In this document: piece by piece, positions 63,223 through 64,000 of the stretch | Layout: each line of letters opens with the position of its first letter | Position numbering within the stretch: the first letter of the stretch is position 1 | Origin: Coriolopsis trogii | Lineage: Eukaryota; Basidiomycota; Agaricomycetes; Polyporales; Polyporaceae | Length of the DNA: 64,000 nucleotides | Direction of reading: 5' to 3' | Assembly: GCA_020543525.1 (NCBI GenBank) | Contig: JAHYIO010000007.1 | Location: forward strand, 868,001-932,000 | Notes under the pieces: generated by a model | What the model saw: the letters and a program-made list of their open reading frames with translations, nothing else | Database searches by the model: none | Told to the model about the DNA's origin: nothing | Position numbers and translations under genes: made by a program

Positions 63223-64000
63223 ATGGCCGAGACATCTGAGCCCGCACAAGTCGTGAACAAAAACAAGAGGCACAGGAAGGAGAAGCGTATGTTTACTAGT
63301 TGTTTCCCGGCACTCGTCTCTCGACTGAAGTCTATGTGCAGCTTGGGACACGGACGATATTGATCAGTAAGCTATTGCTCATAGGGCCGTTTTCTATACA
63401 CATTGCTCACATACATGGCTCAAGTGTGAGGAATTCCACACGCCTTTCAGGTTGTTTGATGTGACACTCTCCACAGTGGAAGATTGACCCCTTCCAGCCG
63501 GGCGACAACAAGGCGGGACCCTTCACGGAAGAGTCTTCGTTTGCAACGCTGTTCCCCAAATACAGGGAGAAATACTTGCGAGAAGTATGGAGTGCGGTGA
63601 CTCAGGCTCTGGACCCCCACGTACGTCTTGCCCTCGAGGTCCATCTCGCGCAGTCTTTCAATGTTCACTCTTTGCTCAGGGAATCGCGTGCACCCTCGAT
63701 CTTATACACGGTTCCATGTCGGTACGGACAACGCGCAAAACGTATGACCCCTACATCATCCTCAAAGCGAGGGACATGATCAAACTCCTTGCGCGTGGGG
63801 TTGCCGTGGGCCAGGCAGTCAAGATCTTGAACGACGACGTTGCGTGCGACATCATTAAGATCGGCAACATTGTGCGGAATAAGGAACGGTTTGTCAAGAG
63901 GAGACAGAGAATCATTGGGCCTGATGGTAGCACGCTGAAGGTGCGCACCTCGTCGACTATCCTCGATGTCACAAGTTAAAAGTCGGTGTGTAGGCCATAG
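63223..64000 (+). CDS. KRR1: Krr1 small-subunit processome KH protein, 3' part outside window
   Basis: Needed for 18S rRNA maturation. Exons: 63223-63286, 63342-63366, 63425 (one base), 63477-63620 and 63680-63940; the last visible intron begins at 63941 and its AG is exactly 63999-64000. Protein: [104 protein letters not shown]: unmistakable Krr1. Between GATCA (63366) and TGG (63477) a single intron leaves the frame wrong by one base. Taking T63425 as an exon flanked by introns of 58 and 51 nt restores CAT-TGG (His-Trp), as in the family's DID-x-W. Confidence 0.93.

Follow-up and report, generated by a model that had tools for sequence, protein, structure and literature searches.

The KRR1 gene of Coriolopsis trogii raises the question of whether one of its exons, between two spliceosomal introns, consists of a single nucleotide. 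KRR1 is a component of the small-subunit processome that acts in ribosome assembly and is essential in yeast. The window (the whole stretch of 64,000 nucleotides analysed here) belongs to contig C7, and the genome comprises 38.8 Mb in 39 contigs; KRR1 opens in its last 0.8 kb, on the forward strand, and runs on past position 64000 to about 64820 (L009). A search of the genome of the same strain with 63200-64000 matched one place only, as for a single-copy gene. The predicted protein carries the KH domains of KRR1 (PF21800, E 1.9e-47; PF17903, E 2.1e-32) and matches the solved Krr1 chain 5wlc_NK over a long stretch (E 2.3e-133). The top-scoring named protein among the best 120 of 7140 matches, from Earliella scabrosa (Polyporaceae), is 94% identical over 94% of the query.

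Exon 1 (63223..63286; 64 nt) starts with ATG, in a frame and with an N-terminus common to relatives, and intron 1 (63287..63341; 55 nt, gtatgt..gtgcag) separates it from exon 2 (63342..63366; 25 nt), which encodes PWDTDDID and ends in CA, the KPWDTDDID peptide being likewise common to relatives. Exon 2 ends in ..GATATTGATCA at 63366, a donor GTAAGC begins at 63367, an acceptor CCACAG extends to 63476, and TGGAAG follows from 63477, where exon 4 (63477..63620; 144 nt) opens with the Trp codon of DIDHWKIDPF. Between GAT CA in exon 2 and TGG in exon 4, the gene is one base short of the full codon that relatives have between Asp and Trp. The initial annotation had noted this missing base between 63366 and 63477 and had proposed that it is supplied within 63417-63431 by an acceptor, one base and a donor; direct reading of the sequence bears out both points. 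The base is T63425 (63425..63425), in the context CTCAAG/T/GTGAGG (slashes mark splice junctions), with AG before it and GT after it, and it forms the third base of a His codon, CAT, as had also been predicted. It delimits intron A (63367..63424; 58 nt, gtaagc..ctcaag, phase 2) and intron B (63426..63476; 51 nt, gtgagg..ccacag, phase 0). A motif search identified candidate branch points in both: GTGAC in intron B (63461..63465, A at 63464), where it had been placed near 63461, and CTCAC in intron A (63406..63410, A at 63409), a few bases away from the 63403 first given.

The gene continues with intron 4 (63621..63679; 59 nt), exon 5 (63680..63940; 261 nt), which lies inside the KH domains, intron 5 (63941..63993; 53 nt) and the start of exon 6 (63994..64000), beyond which it leaves the window. 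Once T63425 is counted as an exon, KRR1 comprises nine exons and eight introns and encodes 387 amino acids in one clean frame. The six introns other than A and B measure 55, 59, 53, 49, 53 and 56 nt and are all GT-AG; the lengths of A and B fit this range of 49-59 nt and are, as claimed, normal here. On the other side, the acceptor of intron A ends in AAG, and the remaining acceptors of the gene end in CAG or TAG. By eye, the next gene downstream, beyond the window, has an intron of ~99 nt (L009:4055-4153). Long introns therefore do occur here, and for this reason we rejected intron length alone, which is weak evidence, as the main argument.

A stronger argument comes from enumerating the internal AG and GT pairs. 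Of the exons whose length is 1 modulo 3, T63425 alone leaves neither intron shorter than 40 nt; three further stop-free solutions exist, each of which requires an intron of 16 or 18 nt. The one-nucleotide exon is thus the only canonical solution with introns of usable size, which supports the interpretation from which we started. T63425 is also needed for the frame. When the skip product is translated, removal of a single 110-nt intron leads, as had been stated, to a frameshift, and this runs into a stop; retention of intron A, intron B or both likewise leads to a stop. Only a non-canonical GT-CA/TA-AG product stays open, with Gln at the junction.

Among the alternatives, the one that survives best, at a very low probability, is an error of assembly or sequencing. 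A C or a T would have been dropped at 63366/63367, where the sequence reads GATCAGTAAGC, and the true structure would be one phase-0 intron of about 110 nt. It can be said in favor of such an error that AG-N-GT is not in itself rare in 110 nt, that the neighboring gene has its long intron (judged by eye) and that in unspliced relatives the acceptor before Trp is in phase 0. Against it stands the layout of those relatives. We ran three protein searches (best 120 of 2554, best 120 of 7140 and best 120 of 266, giving 360 rows) and deduced the layout from the translated frames of gene calls on unspliced contigs, in which third bases are ambiguous and were not read as DNA. Where Q or K immediately precedes W, the ORF has a CAG or AAG acceptor right before TGG, in phase 0, as at the end of intron B. 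At the other end, exon 2 is recognisable where it was translated out of frame: starting at the second base, GAYGAYATHGAYCA/GT yields residues such as M-T-L-T-S, whose last S codon (A+GT) implies a GT directly after CA, which is the donor position of intron A. A shifted-frame exon 2 is present in 13 of the 360 listed proteins (12 found by search and P0243 by eye), namely the named gene model P0193 and 12 unspliced metagenome ORFs that reach exon 4. All but one of these 12 combine a CA/GT donor with Q before W and an AG/TGG acceptor directly before Trp, with CA-to-TGG intervals of 95, 98, 101, 104 or 107 nt, roughly the length of two introns. Left out of these 11 are P0193, as a named gene model, and P0118, which has a single 55-nt interval ending in AG/Y TGG. 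As far as translated frames can tell, the one-nucleotide exon is thus conserved at the DNA level among orthologues, with the two-intron interval in 11 of 12.

In all 11 loci, a word compatible with AG/Y/GT splits the interval into introns of 44-55 nt, against 2.7 loci expected from shuffles (P about 4e-8, a value that treats the 11 loci as independent, which not all of them are); the purine control, AG/R/GT, gave 0/11 versus 1.7 expected. When a consensus donor was required, the counts were 9/11 versus 0.4 expected, and 0/11 versus 0.3 for the corresponding purine control. The word patterns and the limits of 43-60 nt were set after seeing the loci, a choice that affects the loose test and the purine control less. 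P0025, P0242 and P0243 are near copies, and P0246 and P0265 are similar to each other; collapsing similar loci leaves eight groups, of which eight pass the loose test and seven the test with consensus donor. Five further ORFs among the 360 listed proteins lack exon 2 but extend upstream of Trp for 19 codons or more, a set that omits ordinary coding rows with the wrong Trp, rows of fewer than 19 codons, and P0282 and P0290, in which exon 2 is in frame. A consensus word stands at the right distance in two of the five (P0254, S-V-S, 51 nt; P0262, S-V-C, 57 nt), and the other three (P0034, P0248 and P0274) have loose words only. The read-through ORF of P0248 contains Q-C-E, for which CAG/T/GTGAG is possible, about 86 nt before Trp; should this be real, that lineage would have a longer intron B. 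Searches for the DNA of relatives returned a single plant-like contig (L011) from genome contigs and no match from viral contigs. L011:1076-4001 is filed under a Trichormus (cyanobacterial) MAG and contains an intron-rich, plant-like KRR1, for which reason we take it to be probably host DNA in the bin.

The 12 unspliced metagenome ORFs that run from a shifted-frame exon 2 into exon 4 make an assembly error very unlikely, since the same gap and the same two-intron-sized interval are deduced in 11 of them, from separate protein clusters. Public gene models point the same way: of the 96 named models among the best 120 of 7140 proteins, 30 read QW at the junction and five have one extra residue, as would be expected if those genomes share the gap.

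The QW models also speak for a second alternative, slightly more improbable than the first, in which a single non-canonical 109-nt intron (GT-CA or TA-AG) is removed and the codon is CAG (Gln) in place of His; the spliced frame would be open. It is the other part of the same sample that speaks against it. Besides the 96 named models, the best 120 of 7140 proteins of the full-length search include 24 without species name. The junction is present in 23 of these (P0235, which starts LTSNW and lacks the exon-2 peptide, was excluded from the His count); DIDHW stands there in every case. Their ORFs span 371-398 codons without an intron, and 19 of the 23 lie on contigs shorter than 2.1 kb, on which grounds we take them to be probably transcripts. 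The residue that T63425 restores is thus the His seen in 23/23 transcript-like relatives with the junction, and Gln is seen in none. Named models, in contrast, disagree among themselves (33 HW, 30 QW including P0140, which was counted by its sequence, and 33 other), the last class comprising 5 with one extra residue, 7 with H-V-[SRT], 8 with other H, 7 with Q plus an insert and 6 without the exon-2 peptide. When these six are excluded, Q occurs in 37/90 models versus 0/23 transcript-like proteins (Fisher P 3.6e-5; best 120 of 7140). The discrepancy is seen within one genus: P0152, a transcript-like HW protein of Suillus, shares 98.2% identity with the S. luteus model, which reads QW, and 97.9% with the S. 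brevipes model, which reads H-T-W. The GT-AG ends of the other six introns of the gene are a further point against a non-canonical intron. A pipeline that makes a mapped transcript fit GATCAG or CAGTGG would produce QW, and in the H-V-[SRT] models exon Y seems to have been read through its own donor. The 33 HW models alone are compatible with species that have, or do not have, both introns. In total, 63/96 named KRR1 models (best 120 of 7140) do not read HW. This has the appearance of a systematic annotation error, open to correction in bulk, and would make the junction, if the exon is confirmed, an annotation benchmark.

A slightly larger cryptic microexon, of for example 4 or 10 nt, could also restore the frame, and the five public models with one extra residue are what a 4-nt exon would give. 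We consider it less credible still: the extra residue is found in 0/23 transcript-like relatives with the junction, and the stop-free alternatives in this sequence all need one of the very short introns described above. Least credible of all is a stwintron, in which one intron lies within a splice element of another, so that all of 63367-63476 would be removed; two adjoining introns that need consecutive removal recall this arrangement, which is reported from several fungal groups, but contiguous removal leaves the His codon without its base and shifts the frame, and the [D1,2] parse fails because the base before the internal donor is A.

We conclude that T63425 is in all likelihood (probability about 0.95) a real, constitutive one-nucleotide exon of KRR1, placed between two ordinary GT-AG introns and read as CA/T/TGG (His-Trp), the splicing pattern of this strain being deduced from its own sequence and from relatives. 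The comparison with the KRR1 locus of related species, which had been proposed as a check, agrees with this reading in both respects, through the matching layout deduced in metagenome loci and through the His of transcript-like relatives. Short fungal introns are recognised across the intron, and the spliceosome would most likely take out introns A and B in succession, by intron definition, a 1-nt exon being hardly able to accommodate both machineries simultaneously. Removal of the first, whichever it is, would join T to a normal exon and leave the other intron as an ordinary substrate. As to the order of removal, the U1 pairing energies of donor B (-6.3 kcal/mol before removal of intron A and -5.1 after it) do not say which intron goes first and lend no support to an A-first order. 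Correct inclusion of T is presumably under strong selection, given that skipping it or retaining either intron results in a frameshift or a stop.

How did such an arrangement arise? His and Trp are contiguous in the plant-like L011 and in the unspliced-looking ORFs P0010, P0279 and P0291, so that neither intron A nor intron B is universal. Other layouts exist as well. In P0118, P0098 and P0277, S stands directly before W, corresponding to AG/Y TGG after a single interval (the 55 nt of P0118); these three have the motif SSFAILFPKYREQYLRESW in common, and their lineage seems to carry the upstream intron A only. In P0282 and P0290, which read DIDHV...Q/K/W, a stretch of 39 nt continues exon 2 in frame; it may be an exceptionally short phase-0 intron, present downstream only (B alone), or else a coding insertion. 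Two neighboring gains, or one ancestral pair followed by losses, would fit these observations. The exon may have originated by two intron gains at adjoining positions, CA^Y and CAY^TGG. On balance we favor, with reasonable though not high confidence, a one-nucleotide exon that is ancestral to most Agaricomycetes and derives from two independent gains one base apart, the one-intron lineages (A only in P0098, P0118 and P0277; possibly B only in P0282 and P0290) persisting as intermediates or losses. If this is true, KRR1 would have required the accurate splicing of a 1-nt exon through much of the evolution of the Agaricomycetes. Models with QW or with Q plus an insert occur in Polyporales, Boletales, Agaricales, Russulales, Hymenochaetales, Gloeophyllales, Thelephorales and Atheliales (one species each), an eight-order spread that rests on annotation anomalies of gene models; among the metagenome loci, P0269 and P0270 can be placed near Mycena. 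The layout is probably spread over several Agaricomycete orders.

The initial annotation had stressed the extreme rarity of single-nucleotide exons and had cited the plant APC11 precedent. The precedent holds, but the case does not seem an isolated one: the KRR1 exon looks widespread in Agaricomycetes, and a fungal nuclear example, in CYP621A of Fusarium, was published in 2026 and presented as the first in a fungal gene (PMC12940212). A literature search of titles and abstract openings, together with the papers cited here, returned no one-nucleotide exon in KRR1 or in a basidiomycete nuclear gene, and on that basis the KRR1 exon, if confirmed, would be the first in a basidiomycete nuclear gene. 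The spliceosomal handling of a 1-nt exon could be tested on it in a natural setting, and it would present a side-by-side origin of introns that could be dated. Like KRR1, CYP621A is a fungal nuclear gene with a one-base gap in a conserved motif, an AG/N/GT inside an intron >2x the median size, wrong public gene models and conservation in orthologues; its splicing is supported by SRA reads, whereas KRR1 is supported through transcript-like proteins of relatives only (PMC12940212). CYP621A is an ascomycete P450 in which the base is G and the distribution one genus (PMC12940212); KRR1 is a basidiomycete ribosome-assembly gene in which the base is Y (here T) and the distribution apparently several orders. 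Very small exons between introns of 45-55 nt are found in P450 genes of Phanerochaete chrysosporium, a white-rot basidiomycete, but the shortest reported measures 6 nt (PMC1184071). Stwintrons likewise involve adjoining fungal introns and consecutive splicing; they differ in that a splice element is interrupted and no exonic base is left, whereas KRR1 keeps one coding base, and for the reasons given above we do not count it among them.

Two mitochondrial cases show partial likenesses. The fungal introns rnl-576 and rnl-577 lie one A apart, with relatives that have only one of them, a close parallel to the origin proposed for KRR1, although they are group II introns of an rRNA gene and not spliceosomal (PMC12308204). 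The single-base exon of placozoan cox1 likewise keeps a conserved histidine, also in a mitochondrial gene and not by the spliceosome (PMC5436844). In plants, 1-nt microexons have been described in APC11, where splicing was explained by intron definition and consecutive removal (PMC4674806), and in VPS55 (PMC8831610). They share with the KRR1 exon a conservation across a large clade and a history of being overlooked in annotation; they belong to another kingdom and to other genes, the APC11 interval had been annotated as a 422-nt intron, and they were validated experimentally, whereas the KRR1 exon is deduced from sequence (PMC4674806, PMC8831610). One-nucleotide exons themselves are thus known, and what is new here is the gene (KRR1), the occurrence in basidiomycetes and the probable spread over several orders.
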